Assembly: GCA_001939945.1 (NCBI GenBank)
Contig: MOEB01000024.1
Location: 1 to 64,000 of the forward strand
Length of the DNA stretch: 64,000 nucleotides
Direction of reading: 5' to 3'
DNA from: Aerophototrophica crusticola
GTDB taxonomy: Bacteria; Pseudomonadota; Alphaproteobacteria; Azospirillales; Azospirillaceae
Shown here: piece by piece, positions 1 through 7,009 of the stretch
Position numbering within the stretch: the first letter of the stretch is position 1
Layout: every line of letters begins with the position of its first letter
Program-made: the position numbers and the translations under genes
Notes under the pieces: model-generated
What the model was told of the DNA's origin: nothing
What the model saw: the letters and a program-made list of their open reading frames with translations, nothing else
Databases searched by the model: none

Positions 1-521
1 ACCCGGGCGGCCGGGGGGGCGGCCCGGGGCGTGGCGCCGGGCGGGCTGCCGGCGGCGGGGCGGGCGATGTCCGGCGGCGCGGTGTTCAGGAGCGTCTGCT
101 CACCACCCTCCCCCCGCTCCACGCCCCGGATGGTGGGGGCAGCCTGGGGGCGCACCTCTTCCTCCCGCAGCATGGGGCTGGAGGGTTTGGCACGGCTGTT
201 GGGGTCGGCCAGGTTGCCCACGGTGGGGGCCTGCTTTTCCGACCGTTCGGCCAGCAGCCTGTCCACGGTGGCCTTGTCCAGCCGGCCGGTGGCCTTCAGC
301 CCGACGGATTTCTGGTAGGCGCTGATGGCGGCGGCGGTGGCGGAGTCGAGCTTGCCGCTGGCCCGGCCCTGGTAGAAACCCTTGTCGTCCAGGATCTGCT
401 GCGCCCACTGGATGGTGGCGCCGTTGGGTTCGGCATCCCGGGCCGGCGCTGGGGCGGAAACCAGGCAGCAGGCGGCGACGGCGAGGGCGGGCAGGATCAG
501 GCGGGCGGACGGCTTGGGCAT
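1..521 (-). CDS. Secreted peptidoglycan-binding-domain protein (3' end outside window)
   Basis: The reading frame starts at the ATG complementary to 519-521 and runs off the left edge, so the C-terminus is missing. Residues 1-30 are a signal peptide (MPKPSARLILPALAVAACC, then APAPARDAE). Residues about 35-85 look like a PG_binding_1 fold: an Ile-Gln-Trp-Ala-Gln-Gln helix, a GFYQGRASGKLDSATAAAI stretch and a QKSVGLKATGRLDKATV stretch. After that it becomes Pro/Ala-rich and low in complexity. A GAGG lies 8-9 bases before the start. This fold usually anchors periplasmic or outer-membrane-associated proteins to the cell wall; the effector part, if any, lies outside the window. Confidence 0.7.
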   Translation of the reverse strand, partial: MPKPSARLILPALAVAACCLVSAPAPARDAEPNGATIQWAQQILDDKGFYQGRASGKLDSATAAAISAYQKSVGLKATGRLDKATVDRLLAERSEKQAPTVGNLADPNSRAKPSSPMLREEEVRPQAAPTIRGVERGEGGEQTLLNTAPPDIARPAAGSPPGATPRAAPPAAR

Positions 522-614
522 GGACGGACCTCGGGACACCGGGGGGCGGACAGTCCTGTCATGGACCCGCAACCCTCAAGGCTTTATAAATCGGGCGGTT
601 ACCATGCGGATGCC

Positions 615-2282
615 ATGACCATTTTTCATCCCGCCCCCCTGAAATCCGAAGACCGGGGCTTCGCTGCAACAGCAGGCCCGACGGGGCCGGAGGCGGCACG
701 CCTGTGGCGGACCCTGGCCGTCGGCGGGCTGGGGTCGTTGCTGCTGATCGGGCTGGACGTAGGCCTGGCCCCCGACGGCCCCGCCCTAGCCGGGTTGCTG
801 GCCGTGCGGGTGCTGGCGGTGCTGGTGGCCCTGGGCGTGGCCCGGCTGGCCCTGTCGCGGGGGCTGGAGTCGGCAGGATTGCCCCTGGCCCTGTGGCAGG
901 GGCTGCTGGTGGCCGGCCATGTGCTGGCCTTCAGCCTGTGGTCGGAGACGCTGCCCGGGCATTTGATGGCCATCCTGCTGTTGATGCTGGTCTATCTGCT
1001 GGCACCCAACCGGCCCCCGGTGGCGCTGGCCCTGGGCAGCCTGCTGACGGTCGGCCATTTCGCGATCTATTGGCTTTGCCCCGCGCCCGAGCCATTCCCC
1101 CATGCCGGCGTCGTGCTGGCCGTGGCGGCGCTGAACCTGACAGGCTTCATGCTGCTGGCCGCCCGGCAAGGGCGGGAGCCGGCCCCAGCCGCCACCGCGC
1201 CCCCGGCGGAACCGGCGCCGGCCGTCCCGGCGACGGTGGAAGCGCCGGCGGTGGCGGGGCCTGACCTGCGCGCCCTGGCCCATGACCTGCGGACGCCGCT
1301 GAACGGGCTGTTGGGCTTCGCGCAGCTTCTGGCCGGGACCCCGCTTTCGGCAGAGCAGGCCTCCCACCTGGAACAGATCCGCGTCTCCGCCGAGCGGCTG
1401 CGGCGCCTGCTGGACGAGCGCCTGTCACCCGCGGCGACCAAGGCCCCCCCGAAGCGCCCCCTGTCCCTGGCGACCTTCCCGGCGCCGGCCGCGACTCCGG
1501 CGCGGCCCCTGTCCGTGCTGGTGGTGGAGGATGACGATGTGAGCCGCCTGCTGGCCCGCACCCTGTTGGAGCGCGACGGCCATCGGGTGACGGAGGCCCT
1601 GGACGGGCAACAGGCCGTGGAGAAGGCCGCTGCCGGCGGGTTCGACCTGGTGCTGATGGACATCAGGCTGCCGGTGCTGAGCGGCACGGCCGCCGCCCGC
1701 CGCATCCGCGCCCTGCCCGACCCGGTCCGGGCCGCCGTGCCAATCATCGCCGTGACCGGCAATGCCAGCGGTGCCGACCAGGCGAAGCATGGGGACGCCG
1801 GGATGGACGGCACCCTGCAGAAGCCGCTGGAACGGGAAAGCCTGCGCGCCGTGCTGGCGGGGGTGGCAGCCAAGTCGCCGTCCCCTGCCCCCGCGGCCCC
1901 CGGCCAGCCGGCCGCCCCGGCGGAGCCGGACCCCGGGGTGCTGGACAGCAGCGTGCTGGACGGGCACCGGGAAATCCTGGGACCGGTCCGGGTGGCCCAT
2001 GTGGTGGACAGCTTCCTGCTGACCGCGCCGGTGACGGTGGCGGCGGTGGAAGCCGCCCTGGCCGCCGGCGACCTGAAGACCCTGGGCCGGGCGGCCCACA
2101 AGCTGGGCAGCGGCGCCCTGACGGTGGGCCTGCCCGCCCTGGCGAGGCTGTGCCGGGAAACGGAAGCCAAGGCCGACGGCGGGGAGCGGGAGATCGCCCT
2201 GGAGCGGGCTGCTAAGATTGCCCCGGCCTATGCCGCCGGGACCCGGGCGCTGGACCAGTACAAGGCCAAGCTGGGGACCTAA
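615..2282 (+). CDS. Membrane histidine-kinase-like phosphorelay protein: HisKA-REC-HPt, no ATPase domain
   Basis: 555 aa from the ATG at 615; an in-frame ATG at 561 would add 18 unlikely residues. Residues about 25-170 are hydrophobic and could form roughly six membrane segments. A Pro/Ala linker follows, then a HisKA-type H-box (AHDLRTPLNG, His about 223) with its second helix. The HATPase_c domain that normally follows is absent: the chain passes through a short Pro-rich linker into a receiver domain (VEDDD about 305, phospho-acceptor Asp about 349 in LVLMDI, then AVTG and QKP). The C-terminus is an HPt domain (AAHKLGSG, His about 495). It should accept or relay phosphate but cannot autophosphorylate in the usual way. 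The response regulator at 2350-3066 is convergent and may be its partner. Confidence 0.8.
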   Translation: MTIFHPAPLKSEDRGFAATAGPTGPEAARLWRTLAVGGLGSLLLIGLDVGLAPDGPALAGLLAVRVLAVLVALGVARLALSRGLESAGLPLALWQGLLVAGHVLAFSLWSETLPGHLMAILLLMLVYLLAPNRPPVALALGSLLTVGHFAIYWLCPAPEPFPHAGVVLAVAALNLTGFMLLAARQGREPAPAATAPPAEPAPAVPATVEAPAVAGPDLRALAHDLRTPLNGLLGFAQLLAGTPLSAEQASHLEQIRVSAERLRRLLDERLSPAATKAPPKRPLSLATFPAPAATPARPLSVLVVEDDDVSRLLARTLLERDGHRVTEALDGQQAVEKAAAGGFDLVLMDIRLPVLSGTAAARRIRALPDPVRAAVPIIAVTGNASGADQAKHGDAGMDGTLQKPLERESLRAVLAGVAAKSPSPAPAAPGQPAAPAEPDPGVLDSSVLDGHREILGPVRVAHVVDSFLLTAPVTVAAVEAALAAGDLKTLGRAAHKLGSGALTVGLPALARLCRETEAKADGGEREIALERAAKIAPAYAAGTRALDQYKAKLGT

Positions 2283-2311
2283 AGCGTGTTTACGCTGACC
2301 GTAAACACGCT
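2283..2311. terminator. Perfect 12-bp hairpin between convergent genes
   Basis: AGCGTGTTTACG (2283-2294) pairs exactly with CGTAAACACGCT (2300-2311) across a 5-base loop. It begins one base after the stop codon of the phosphorelay protein and faces the convergent response regulator, so it could end transcripts from both sides. There is no U-tract; it may instead be a dispersed palindrome acting as a terminator. Confidence 0.55.
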
Positions 2312-2349: not shown

Positions 2350-3066
2350 TCAGCCCACGTCGGCGCCCAGCCGGTAGCCCAGGCCCTTTTCCGTCAGGAT
2401 CAGGTTTGTCTGGCCGCTCTCATCCGCCATCTTCTTGCGCAGGCGGCTGACCAGCACGTCGATGGTGCGGTCGTTGGGGTTCCGGTCCGTGCCGCTGACC
2501 GCGTCGATCAGCTGGTCGCGGGTCACCACCCGGCCGCCGGAGCGGACCAGCAGGGCCAACAGCTCGAACTCCCCCCGGGTCACCCGGACCTCCCGCCCCT
2601 GCGGGTCGATCAGGCGTCGGCGGGCCAGATCCATGGTCCAGCCGCCGAAGCGGCGCACCATGCCCTCCGCCAGCCGCATCTTGCTGGGGTGGGTCCGGCG
2701 CAGCAGGTTGCGGGCGCGGGCCAGCAGTTCCCGCGGGTTGGGCGGCTTGGTCACGTAATCGTCGCCGCCCGTCTCCAGCCCGAAGACGCGGTCATCCTCG
2801 TTGGCGCGGTTGGTGACGATGATGATGCCGACGTTGGAGATGTCCCGGATGCTGCGGGCCAGGGTGAAGCCGTCCTCATCCGGAAGCTCGATGTCCAGCA
2901 GCACCAGGTCGGGTGGCTGGCGAAGCAGAGCGTCACGGGTCTGCCGACCGTTCTCCGCTTCCACCACGATGAAACCGGCCTGGTGGAAGTATCCGGCAAG
3001 GAGGGCCCTGGTCGCCGGCTCATCCTCGACGATGAGAACCAGGGGGGCGTCCGCAATTTCCGCCAT
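2350..3066 (-). CDS. OmpR/TorR-type two-component response regulator
   Basis: 238 aa from the ATG at 3064-3066; earlier in-frame starts (for example 3081, 3222) add no conserved sequence. The N-terminal receiver domain has the acidic pair in VLIVEDEP, the phospho-acceptor Asp in LVLLDIELP, the switch Thr in IIIVTN and Lys in YVTKP. The C-terminal winged helix (from about residue 130) has the usual TRGEFELLALL, RTIDVLVSRLRKK and GLGYRLGA motifs, so it is an OmpR-family DNA-binding activator or repressor. No complete histidine kinase is adjacent; the nearest candidate partner is the ATPase-less HisKA-REC-HPt protein convergent with it. Confidence 0.9.
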   Translation of the reverse strand: MAEIADAPLVLIVEDEPATRALLAGYFHQAGFIVVEAENGRQTRDALLRQPPDLVLLDIELPDEDGFTLARSIRDISNVGIIIVTNRANEDDRVFGLETGGDDYVTKPPNPRELLARARNLLRRTHPSKMRLAEGMVRRFGGWTMDLARRRLIDPQGREVRVTRGEFELLALLVRSGGRVVTRDQLIDAVSGTDRNPNDRTIDVLVSRLRKKMADESGQTNLILTEKGLGYRLGADVG

Positions 3067-3141
3067 CAAGCACCGGACCATATTCGTTGCTGCCGACCCC
3101 GGGGGGCCCGGCGCCCCGCCGTGAATGGGAGGGACTTCACT

Positions 3142-3170
3142 TATTAAGTAAACCATATCATGGCACGCAA
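3142..3170 (-). promoter_or_regulatory. Candidate promoter of the response regulator
   Basis: On the minus strand a TTGCGT (3165-3170) is followed after 17 bases by TTAATA (3142-3147), inside an AT-rich patch unlike the surrounding DNA. This would give a leader of about 70 bases before the ATG at 3066. The -10 region overlaps an 11-base palindrome, ACTTATTAAGT (3139-3149), a possible operator. Confidence 0.4.
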
Positions 3171-3198
3171 AAAACCCTTTTCGCGTGTGCTTGGAAGT

Positions 3199-3225
3199 GG
3201 GATGGGCACCCCGGTCGCCCATCCC
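3199..3225 (-). terminator. Hairpin downstream of putA
   Basis: GGGATGGGC (3199-3207) pairs with GCCCATCCC (3217-3225), a 9-bp stem with a 9-base loop placed 18 bases after the putA stop codon. There is no clear U-run, so intrinsic termination may be weak. Confidence 0.45.
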
Positions 3226-3243
3226 GCCCCCAATCCTTTCGGG

Positions 3244-6200
3244 TCAGCCGCCCAGTTCGAGCAGGGAAGCATTCCCACCGAACGCCGTGGTGTTGATGGT
3301 CAGGGTCTTCTCGGTAGCAAAACGAAGCAGGTAGTGCGGGCCGCCCGCCTTTGGACCGGTTCCGGAAAGACCCTGGCCGCCGAACGGCTGCACGCCCACC
3401 ACGGCGCCGACCATGTTGCGGTTGACATAGGTATTCCCCACCCCCAGCCGGTGGAACAGCTCGATGGAGCGGCTTTCCAAGCGGGTATGCACGCCGAAGG
3501 TCAGGCCATAGCCGGTGGCCGCCAGGTCCGACACCACCTTGTCCAGGGCGTTGGCCTTGAAGCGGATGATGTGCAGGACGGGGCCGAACACCTCCCGCGG
3601 CAGTTGGGACAGGCTGGCGACCTCATACAGGCGGGGGCCGAAGAAGGTACCGTCATTCAGGTGTTCCGGCACCGGAACGGCCTTGATGAGCTTGGCTTCC
3701 CGGTCCATGCGGGCGGCGTGGTCGCGCAGGATGGTCCGCGCCCCCTCGTCGATCACCGGGCCCACGTCGGTGCTGGCGTCCATGGGGTCGCCCAGGCGCA
3801 GCAGGTCCATGGCGCCGGCCAGCATGTGGGCCAGCCTGTCCGCCACCTCCTCCTGCGCGAACAGCACCCGCATGGCGGAGCAACGCTGCCCGGCGGAGAG
3901 GAAGGCGGAGGTGACGCAGTCATCCACCACCTGTTCCAGAAGGGCCGTCGAATCGACGATCATGCCGTTCTGGCCGCCCGTCTCCGCCACCAGCGGCACG
4001 ATGGCGCCGTCCCGGTTGGCCAGCGTGCGGTTGATGGCGCGGCCCGTCTCCGTGCTGCCGGTAAAGCAGACGCCGGAAACGCGCAGGTCGCGGGTCAGGG
4101 CGGCCCCCACCACTTCCCCGTCGCCGGGCAGCAGGGCCAGCACGTCCGCCGGCACGCCGGCCCGGTGCAGCAGGCGCACCGCCTCTGCCGCCACCAGGGG
4201 GGTCTGCTCCGCCGGCTTGGCCACCACGGCGTTGCCCGCCGCCAGCGCGGCCACCACCTGGCCGATGAAGATGGCCAGCGGGAAGTTCCAGGGGCTGATG
4301 CAGGCGAAGACGCCGCGGCCGGTCAGGTACAGCTCGTTGCTCTCCCCCGTAGGACCCGGCAGGCGCACCGGAGCGGCGAACTGTTCCCGCGCCCGGGCGG
4401 CGTAGTAGCGGCAGAAATCCACCGCTTCCCGGATTTCCGCCGCCGCGTCGGGCAGGGTCTTGCCCGCCTCACGGACCAGCAGGGCGAACAGGGCCTGGTG
4501 GTTCTCCTCCATCAGCGCGGCGGCCCGGTCCAGGCAGGCGGCGCGCTCCGCGGCCGGGGTCCGGTCCCAGGCGGGTTGGGCGGCCACGGCGCGGGACAGG
4601 GCCTCCTCCACCGCCTCTGACGTGGCCAGGGTGACGGTGCCCACCTTGCGCTTGCGGTCGGCGGGGTCGGTCACAGGGTTGGCGGGGCCCGGCAGTTCCT
4701 TGCCACCGACGATAGGACCCGCGGTCCAGGGGCGGGAGAGCGCCTTGGCCATGCCGGCCTGCAAGTCGGCCAGCTTGTCCGGCGCGCTCAGGTCATAGCC
4801 CTTGCTGTTCGACCGCTCCTCCCCATACAGCCCCTCCGGCAGGGGGATGCGGGGGTGGCGCAGGGTGCCCTGTTCCTCCAGCGTGCGGGCCGGGTCGGCC
4901 ACCACCTCCGCCACCGGCACGTCCGGGTCCATGTAGGCGTTGACGAAGTTGCTGTTGGCCCCGTTCTCCAGCAGGCGCCGGACCAGGTAGGGCAGCAAAT
5001 CCTCATGCGTGCCCACGGGGGCATAGACGCGGACCCGCGGCATGGACGGCAGCACGTCCCGCGCGGCGGCGAACAGCAGCTCCCCCATCCCGTGCAGGCG
5101 CTGGAATTCCAGGTCCCGGTTGTCGCCCGCCAAGTGCAGGATGGCGGCGATGGTATAGGCGTTGTGGGTGGCGAACTGCGGGTAGATGGCGTCGCGGTGG
5201 CCCAGCATCTTGCGGGCGCAGACCAGGTAGGACAGGTCCGTGGCCGCCTTGCGGGTGAAGACAGGGTAGTCGGCATGGCCGGCGGCCTGGGACCACTTCA
5301 CCTCGCTGTCCCAATAGGCGCCCTTCACCAGCCGCACCATCAGCCGGCGGCCGGCCGAGCGGGCCAGCGCTGCCAGCCAGTCCACCAAGTGCACGGTGCG
5401 CTTCTGGTAGGCCTGGATGGCCAGGCCCAACCCGTTCCAGCCTTTCAGGTCCGGGTCATGGGCGAGCGCCGCGATGACGTCGAGGGAGAGGTCGAGGCGG
5501 TCCGCCTCCTCCGCGTCGATGGTCAGGTTGATGTCCCAGCGCTTGGCCTGGAGGCACAGCTCCTTCACCGGCGGCACCAGCTCCGCCATCACCGAGGCAT
5601 GCTGCGCCTGGACATAGCGCGGGTGCAGGGCGCTGAGCTTGATGGAGACGCCGGGGGCGGCCGTCGGGCCCTTGCCACCGGCCTCCGCCCCCACCTTGTC
5701 CACGGCGTTCTTGTAGGCTTCCAGGTAGCGCTTCGCCTGTTCCCAGGTGCGGGCCCCCTCCCCCAGCATGTCGTAGCTGTGCAGGGTGCCGGCGGGCTTG
5801 GCCTTGCGGGCCTCCGCCAGGGCCTCCGTGATGGTCTTGCCCATGACGAAATGGTCGCCCATCACCTTCATGGCCTGGCCCATGGCGGCGCGGATCACCG
5901 TCTCCCCCGACCGGGCGACCATGCGCTTCAGGAAGCCCTTGGCGTCCTTCTCCCCCGTCTCCAGGCCGGTGACCTTGCCGGTCAGCATCAGGCCCCAGGC
6001 GGCGGCGTTGACGAACACGCTGTCGCTGCGGCCCAGGTGGCTGTCCCATTGCCCTTGCGCGATCTTCTCCGCGATCAGCCGGTCCGCCGTCTCCGGGTCG
6101 GCGATGCGCAGCAGGCACTCCGCGATGCACATCAGCGCGATGCCTTCCTGGTTGGACAGGCCGAATTCCTGAAGGAAGGCGTCCAACGGGCCCAGCTCCT

Positions 6201-6396
6201 TGCGCCGGCCGCGGGCGGCGTTCACCACCGCCACCGCCCGGTCATGGATGGCCTGCCGCTCCCCGCCGGAAAGGCCGTGGCCCCGCAGCAGGGCGGTGAC
6301 GGCCTGCTCCTCCCGCTGGTGCTTGGTGGCGCGGAGCGTGGCACGCAGGGACGCAAGGTCTTGGGCCGGCGGGAGGTCGACCGTGGCAAGCGACAT
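3244..6396 (-). CDS. putA: Bifunctional proline dehydrogenase / L-glutamate gamma-semialdehyde dehydrogenase PutA
   Basis: 1050 aa from the ATG at 6394-6396 (MSLATVDLPP). It oxidises proline to glutamate in two steps: an FAD proline dehydrogenase barrel in the N-terminal half and an NAD aldehyde dehydrogenase in the C-terminal half. Visible ALDH motifs are ISPWNFPLAIF, FTGSTETGRAI, the catalytic Glu about 805 (VAETGGQNG) and catalytic Cys about 839 (SAGQRCSAM). PRODH-type motifs include MVRLVKGAYWDSE and YATHNA-like QFATHNAYT. There is no ribbon-helix-helix domain at the N-terminus, so it does not look like the self-regulating trifunctional PutA. Control probably comes from the divergent Lrp-type gene at 6524. 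Confidence 0.96.
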   Translation of the reverse strand: MSLATVDLPPAQDLASLRATLRATKHQREEQAVTALLRGHGLSGGERQAIHDRAVAVVNAARGRRKELGPLDAFLQEFGLSNQEGIALMCIAECLLRIADPETADRLIAEKIAQGQWDSHLGRSDSVFVNAAAWGLMLTGKVTGLETGEKDAKGFLKRMVARSGETVIRAAMGQAMKVMGDHFVMGKTITEALAEARKAKPAGTLHSYDMLGEGARTWEQAKRYLEAYKNAVDKVGAEAGGKGPTAAPGVSIKLSALHPRYVQAQHASVMAELVPPVKELCLQAKRWDINLTIDAEEADRLDLSLDVIAALAHDPDLKGWNGLGLAIQAYQKRTVHLVDWLAALARSAGRRLMVRLVKGAYWDSEVKWSQAAGHADYPVFTRKAATDLSYLVCARKMLGHRDAIYPQFATHNAYTIAAILHLAGDNRDLEFQRLHGMGELLFAAARDVLPSMPRVRVYAPVGTHEDLLPYLVRRLLENGANSNFVNAYMDPDVPVAEVVADPARTLEEQGTLRHPRIPLPEGLYGEERSNSKGYDLSAPDKLADLQAGMAKALSRPWTAGPIVGGKELPGPANPVTDPADRKRKVGTVTLATSEAVEEALSRAVAAQPAWDRTPAAERAACLDRAAALMEENHQALFALLVREAGKTLPDAAAEIREAVDFCRYYAARAREQFAAPVRLPGPTGESNELYLTGRGVFACISPWNFPLAIFIGQVVAALAAGNAVVAKPAEQTPLVAAEAVRLLHRAGVPADVLALLPGDGEVVGAALTRDLRVSGVCFTGSTETGRAINRTLANRDGAIVPLVAETGGQNGMIVDSTALLEQVVDDCVTSAFLSAGQRCSAMRVLFAQEEVADRLAHMLAGAMDLLRLGDPMDASTDVGPVIDEGARTILRDHAARMDREAKLIKAVPVPEHLNDGTFFGPRLYEVASLSQLPREVFGPVLHIIRFKANALDKVVSDLAATGYGLTFGVHTRLESRSIELFHRLGVGNTYVNRNMVGAVVGVQPFGGQGLSGTGPKAGGPHYLLRFATEKTLTINTTAFGGNASLLELGG

Positions 6397-6523
6397 GGGA
6401 TACCCCAGGGCAGCAGGTGGAATTGGCCGGAGTATGGCAAAGACACTGGCGGATTTCTCGCCATTCTCCGCGGTTTTGCAGTACGTTCTCCTATCAGAAA
6501 GCCAGATCGGCGGAGGAAATCCG
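6397..6523. promoter_or_regulatory. Divergent putA / Lrp-type regulator control region
   Basis: This 127-base gap must hold both promoters. It contains the interrupted palindrome TGGCG-N7-CGCCA (6447-6463), a candidate site for the Lrp-type regulator. The regulator's ribosome-binding site GGAGG (6512-6516) lies 7 bases before its GTG start. Promoter boxes are not clear enough to place. Confidence 0.4.
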
Positions 6524-7009
6524 GTGACCGGGGGCAATGGCCACAAACCTGACAAGGTTGACCTGAACATCCTGCGCATCCTTCAGGAGGATGGGCGCAT
6601 CGCCAATGTGGAGCTGGCCCGCCGGGTCAACCTGTCCCCCACCCCCTGCCTGGAGCGGGTCCGGCGGCTGGAACGGGAAGGCTATGTGCGCCAGTACGTG
6701 GCCCTGCTGGACCCGGAAAAGCTGGACCGGGCGCTGATGGCCTTCATCGAGGTGCGGCTGGACCGGACGACGCCGGACGTGTTCCAGATTTTTGCCGACG
6801 CGGTGGCAGGGCTGGACGAAATCCAGGAATGCCACATGGTGGCGGGCGGGTTCGACTATTTGATCAAGGTGCGGGTCGCCGACATGGCCGCCTACCGCGC
6901 CTTCCTGGGGGACAAGCTGTCCAGCATCCAGGGCGTCGCCCAGACCCATACCTACATGGTGATGGAAGAGGTGAAGAGCACCCATGTGGTGCCGGTACCG
7001 AGGGCGTGA
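6524..7009 (+). CDS. putR: Lrp/AsnC-family regulator, probable proline-responsive activator of putA
   Basis: 161 aa from a GTG at 6524, chosen because GGAGG sits 7 bases upstream and the protein then begins just before the helix-turn-helix. Residues about 8-60 form the AsnC-type HTH (KVDLNILRILQEDGRIANVE, then LARRVNLSPTPCLERVRRLE). The rest is the RAM/AsnC ligand-binding domain (FIEVRLD, CHMVAGGFDYLIKVRV). The divergent position next to putA is the standard arrangement of PutR in alphaproteobacteria, where it activates putA in response to proline. The specific role is inferred from this context; the family assignment is firm. Confidence 0.88.
   Translation: MTGGNGHKPDKVDLNILRILQEDGRIANVELARRVNLSPTPCLERVRRLEREGYVRQYVALLDPEKLDRALMAFIEVRLDRTTPDVFQIFADAVAGLDEIQECHMVAGGFDYLIKVRVADMAAYRAFLGDKLSSIQGVAQTHTYMVMEEVKSTHVVPVPRA

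Follow-up and report, generated by a model that had tools for sequence, protein, structure and literature searches.

The gene at 561..2282 of the window, by which we mean the whole 64,000-nucleotide stretch of DNA analysed, encodes a membrane-anchored phosphotransfer protein with a HisKA, a receiver and an HPt domain and without an ATPase domain of its own. With a rough probability of 0.68, we read it as what is left of a tripartite hybrid kinase resembling TorS, which has turned into a membrane-bound phosphotransfer intermediate, and which would be fed by a donor and would charge the regulator encoded at 2350-3066. The observations on which this reading is based are the architecture of the protein, the absence of the ATPase, the invariance of the HPt histidine and the co-occurrence of the regulator.

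The relay gene and its surroundings

The following features were located in the window.

3..572, minus strand: PG_binding_1 protein (Pfam) flanking the relay gene on the side away from the regulator, running past the window start
561..2282, plus strand: relay gene, an open frame of 573 aa
714..1160, plus strand: N-terminal hydrophobic region (residues 52-200) with five distinct Kyte-Doolittle peaks
1269..1418, plus strand: HisKA, residues 237-286 (Pfam PF00512, E = 5.8e-13)
1281-1283: phospho-acceptor His241 of the relay HisKA
1419..1514, plus strand: Pro/Ala-rich linker, residues 287-318, the site of HATPase_c in the outgroup kinases
1515..1856, plus strand: receiver, residues 319-432 (Pfam PF00072, E = 1.1e-22)
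1659-1661: receiver Asp367
2001..2210, plus strand: HPt, residues 481-550 (Pfam PF01627, E = 1.6e-11)
2097-2099: HPt His513
2283..2311, no strand: 12-base inverted repeat between the convergent relay and regulator genes, read from the sequence
2350..3066, minus strand: OmpR-type response regulator (receiver and Trans_reg_C), TorR/ArcA-like, the proposed output (Pfam, NCBIfam)
3244..6579, minus strand: PutA-like protein with Pro_dh and Aldedh (Pfam, synteny)

The domain content claimed in the sequence-only reading was borne out by Pfam, and the profile search proposed there for a divergent HATPase domain gave no HATPase model at E<=10 in the relay frame. The receiver and the HPt are intact, as had been said, with Asp367 and His513 present, and the Pro-rich linker ahead of the receiver was found at residues 287-318, where half of the 32 residues are Pro or Ala. 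The remark that a single helix follows the H-box was right as to the helix but not as to any peculiarity, this being the normal second helix of HisKA. The HisKA match covers profile positions 7-56 of 66. As estimated from domain coordinates, the gap between HisKA and receiver is about 163 residues shorter in the relay than in the outgroup kinase L178. Stretches of the hydrophobic part match the corresponding proteins of two related genomes, G076 (39%) and G055 (42%).

The GC content at codon position 3 of the relay frame is 0.86-0.94 per 240-base stretch from 681 onward and is unbroken over the joint of HisKA, linker and receiver, so that the check for a hidden frameshift gave no sign of one. 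Since the first stretch, 561-800, reaches just 0.75, the true start of the relay may be the ATG at 615, which would give a protein of 555 aa. A single-sequence structure prediction of the relay (mean pLDDT 46.5, pTM 0.28) was set aside as evidence.

The regulator has TorR and ArcA as its best models, both scored below their cut-offs; for TorR (NF008034) the score is 221.6 bits (E = 9.7e-66) against a curated cut-off of 275. The inverted repeat at 2283..2311 is perhaps a terminator shared by the two convergent genes.

Absence of the ATPase domain

Searching with three outgroup HATPase domains by tblastn gave no match at E<=1 within the 64-kb window, and of the 111 sites in the own genome that match HATPase_c at E<=0.01, none lies on the window's contig, C152. 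A separate ATPase gene adjoining the relay was ruled out, as there is none on that contig. A frameshift or assembly error concealing the domain was also ruled out, both by the even codon bias and by the same ATPase-less domain order in G055. As the order HisKA-receiver-HPt recurs in that genome, which belongs to another genus, the ATPase-less architecture is not due to chance.

The same tblastn over the loci of 19 related genomes yielded three matches with E of 0.19-0.96, which were taken as chance. The sole clear match, in L175, lies about 4 kb from the relay of G069, which has moved away from its regulator, and none was seen in L176 and L177. Apart from the window's own locus, 29 loci were fetched, 27 of them with a HATPase match; the remaining two belong to the relatives of the relay. 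In a survey outside the family, 75 related loci were covered; a HisKA-receiver pair was found in 15, and 60 gave no answer. The short spacing occurred in none of these 15, where 169-323 residues separate the two domains against 22 in the window (pairs at most 400 apart).

Measured as a histidine kinase, the relay has the HisKA with its acceptor His and lacks HATPase_c. Such a gene is easily named a histidine kinase despite having no ATP-binding domain, which is a warning for annotation.

Relatives of the relay in the family

Among the 82 genomes of the family, 20, from five genera, have the regulator with an identity of 85-90%, and the next match falls to 54%; the search at the level of the order covered the same 82 genomes. 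In the class search, with at most 7 candidates scored per genome, 385 genomes were drawn and 3 of them gave the regulator at E<=1e-70, each belonging to the window's genus. The window protein has an HPt relative in each of the 20 regulator-bearing genomes, in three of them not adjacent to the regulator, which supports the suggestion that the convergent regulator is the likely output. An HPt profile gave E<=1e-40 in exactly those 20 genomes, followed by G033 at 1.9e-16 and G038 at 7.9e-16. The profile was built from 17 of the 20 HPt rows, so the informative part of this result is the three outside rows, which score about like the 17 inside, and the gap to the rest. In G072, a genome of the window's genus (93% complete, 860 contigs), neither regulator nor relay was found.

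PutA adjoins the regulator in every one of the 20 genomes: in the window and in all 19 regions fetched, though in L163 the contig end cuts it. Regulator and PutA, 2350-6579 in the window, stay together throughout.

The gene convergent with the regulator, here called the slot, was read in the 19 other genomes; a hydrophobic part in these relatives was judged by reading the sequences.

G055: hydrophobic part, HisKA, receiver, HPt
G076: hydrophobic part, receiver, HPt, without HisKA
G066: receiver and HPt
G075, G071, G067, G070, G068: hydrophobic part, Asp-less receiver, HPt
G064, G060, G065, G063, G059, G062, G061, G054: HPt alone, 128-134 aa
G069, G073, G074: SpoVR

At L158, L162 and L163 a SpoVR-type gene now adjoins the regulator, identified by Pfam in L158 and by likeness in the other two. 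The relays of these last three genomes were located elsewhere by the HPt profile, at L175, L176 and L177, where they adjoin a relative of the PG_binding_1 protein that neighbours the relay in the window; each has an Asp-less receiver and an HPt.

The orthologue survey that had been proposed thus found the window's architecture again in G055, and Pfam found no HATPase_c in any of the 20 relay proteins (E thresholds of 10, 1, 0.01 and 0.01 across the scans). HisKA was found by Pfam in two, the window and G055, whose HisKA domains are 50% identical over 54 positions, with the H-box intact in both; the five slot proteins with a hydrophobic part and an Asp-less receiver have a stretch aligned to HisKA without an H-box. 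A receiver is present in 12 of the 20, and its Asp is kept in four of the 12 (window, G055, G076, G066). The HPt His is kept in all 20. In a survey, the His was missing from 0.9% of HPt domains and the Asp from 2.0% of receivers, as given in the available part of PMC12632262. Identity of the HPt-only proteins to the HPt of the window is 35-50%, and for the one in G064 a direct BLAST comparison with the window protein showed no match at E<=1e-4.

The eight Asp-less receivers (L151, L155, L159, L160, L161, L175, L176, L177) are mutually conserved, with a mean identity of 77% over 8 rows. They are perhaps pseudo-receivers which have taken on another, new role.

Ancestry

The ten best regulator matches from outside the clade, 48-53% identical and drawn from 8 genomes, all of genus g3, served as the outgroup. 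In all ten the kinase is convergent with the regulator and carries HisKA, HATPase_c, receiver and HPt. In G038 the HPt match belongs to a frame of 933 aa, whose convergent neighbour is a regulator of 49% identity. The outgroup count excludes L180, an eleventh stretch obtained because of its HPt match and not linked to a regulator. TorS_sensor_domain was found in three of the ten kinases (L186, L187 and L188, from G033, G030 and G036), and against the TorS (TIGR02956) cut-off L186 passes with 715.4, while L178 (416.4) and L179 (462.8) fall below.

In the regulator tree the 20 regulators lie on one side of a branch with support 100/100. This branch, together with the complete kinase in all ten outgroup loci, indicates that the loss of the ATPase preceded the splitting of the window's clade, and the complete kinase is likely the ancestral state. 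The ancestor would then have been a sensor-HisKA-HATPase-receiver-HPt kinase standing tail to tail with its regulator. In the tree of regulator and PutA the window branches as sister to its nine congeners (88/77), and the six architectures require 5 changes, with the three SpoVR genomes labelled 'none'; if these were grouped with the Asp-less ones, fewer than 5 would be needed. With midpoint rooting of the trees and a weak support of 82/58 for the HPt-only group, the order of the losses is not firm. The HisKA found in both the window and G055 would suit an ancestor with HisKA and without the ATPase.

The loci form a natural deletion series, mostly in one place, running from the complete outgroup kinase through the loss of the ATPase, then HisKA, then the receiver Asp, to the loss of the receiver and the membrane part, and no member of it is without the HPt His. 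This series makes it possible to test how a relay functions after the loss of its kinase and how orphaned HPt domains gain new donors.

Proposed working of the relay and alternative explanations

Since the relay has no ATPase of its own, its phosphate must come from elsewhere. An unlinked hybrid kinase would phosphorylate the relay receiver at Asp367 from its own, foreign HisKA His; alternatively, a foreign receiver would pass the phosphate directly to the HPt His513. From His513 it would go on to the regulator encoded at 2350-3066. Judging by their domains, the four relays with an intact receiver could be charged at the receiver and the other 16 solely at the HPt. As HisKA is present in 2 of the 20 relay proteins but the HPt His in 20, it is the HPt or the receiver, instead of HisKA, that is conserved as the point of entry; what stays constant is the HPt together with the regulator. 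We infer here the direction of the phosphate, the existence and identity of the donors, and HisKA as a relic or a dimerisation piece. Several points speak against the donor-fed relic: the window HisKA is well formed with an intact H-box, more than would be required of a mere relic; the donor kinase of the relay was not found; the order of the losses is not firm; the HPt-only proteins have a limited likeness to the window HPt; and a single genus supplies the ten outgroup loci.

The own genome has roughly 40 hybrid kinases without HPt, a rough count drawn from 65 of 111 HATPase, 59 of 147 receiver and 12 of 17 HPt rows. One of these, the C88 kinase (G000:C88:64423-66822, L189; hybrid and without HPt by Pfam), was chosen as the best own-genome match to the window protein without an HPt (49%), its receiver being the most similar to that of the window among those matches (52%). 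No regulator match was present within the 6.5 kb fetched around it. Its sensor part was matched in G055 at 3.8e-50. As a general donor the C88 kinase was rejected, since the remaining 18 genomes of the clade gave no match (whole protein at E<=1e-130, sensor part at E<=1e-10); as a donor that might act through the relay HisKA it is a lead only. A wider picture, which we consider rather doubtful, is that a single ATPase loss orphaned the TorS-like kinase and that its HPt was then adopted by different unlinked hybrid kinases in different lineages, with the regulator almost unchanged; a C88-type orphan kinase may then act via HisKA in the two HisKA-keeping genomes.

The HPt relay of ArcB is reversible, and the relay could be a phosphate sink, in which the regulator, charged by another kinase, would pass its phosphate to the HPt and on to the receiver, where it would be lost. 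Reversibility is also described for HPt relays in the available part of PMC12632262, and the receiver Asp and HPt His that are kept together in the window, G055, G076 and G066 are all that a sink needs. However, a sink within the protein is impossible in the eight of the 20 with an Asp-less receiver and in the eight without a receiver, in which the HPt His is still kept, and we regard this explanation as unlikely.

The sequence-only reading had also suggested phosphorylation in trans. In the form considered here, a partner kinase would label His241 of the relay HisKA within a mixed dimer, and the phosphate would pass from there to Asp367, His513 and the regulator. The H-box, intact in the window and G055, would allow this, trans steps within dimers have been reported for BarA and TorS (available part of PMC4734776), and the match of the C88 kinase at E<=1e-130 is limited, over 82 genomes, to G055, which with the window makes up the HisKA-keeping genomes. 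This proposal has become weaker, as 18 of the 20 relay proteins gave no HisKA match. Nor do the HisKA domains of C88 and the window show any special likeness (42% identity; other own-genome HisKA matches reach 34-38% by another alignment), and the C88 sensor part is weakly matched in five g4 genomes without the regulator. With two genomes, one candidate kinase and no correction for kinship, the coincidence with G055 leaves phosphorylation in trans improbable. That the gene is a kinase decaying into a functionless pseudogene, as the piecemeal lack of domains in most lineages could suggest, is very improbable in view of the open frame with its steady codon bias, the HPt His in 20 of 20, the mean 77% identity of the Asp-less receivers themselves and the retention of the relay in three genomes where it no longer adjoins the regulator.

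Comparison with known systems

A word search of open-licence papers, over titles and the starts of abstracts of the entries listed, gave no description of the relay gene or of an ATPase-less HisKA-receiver-HPt relay. Annotators already recognise kinase-like proteins without HATPase as a class, 'Incomplete HK' of the P2CS database, which is named in the available part of PMC4618731. There it is a label for a missing domain, unlike a described system, and no conserved relay with a regulator is told of; TorS and TorR are unnamed in the main text of this Azospirillum survey so far as available. Architectures are counted by HK, RR and HPt labels in another survey (PMC4558063, available part).

TorS and TorR are the best NCBIfam matches of the two window proteins (TorS 1.6e-44, TorR 9.7e-66), and the outgroup kinases are convergent with homologous regulators in the same manner. 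The relay differs from TorS in having neither HATPase_c nor TorS_sensor_domain, and its score of 152.3 bits lies far below the curated TIGR02956 cut-off of 676.5.

LuxU and others are stand-alone HPt proteins. This form is seen in 8 of the 20 relatives, whereas the window relay keeps its membrane part, HisKA and receiver. LadS reportedly acts through the HPt of GacS.

RcsD is not known to have a receiver. According to the available part of PMC7418988, RcsD is a membrane-bound kinase derivative with an inactive HATPase, whose HPt is needed and passes phosphate from another kinase to the regulator. The proposed relay resembles it in this respect, but its ATPase is absent where RcsD keeps an inactive one, and its HisKA and receiver are intact. 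In SypF of Vibrio fischeri the HPt alone restores function and is fed by the hybrid kinases RscS and HahK (PMC11841056, available part). The HPt of the relay would likewise be donor-fed; SypF is described in the same source as a hybrid sensor kinase, whereas the catalytic domain is absent from all 20 relay proteins. One mark of an HPt intermediate of the RcsD and SypF kind, an HPt domain with a conserved His, is found in the relay.
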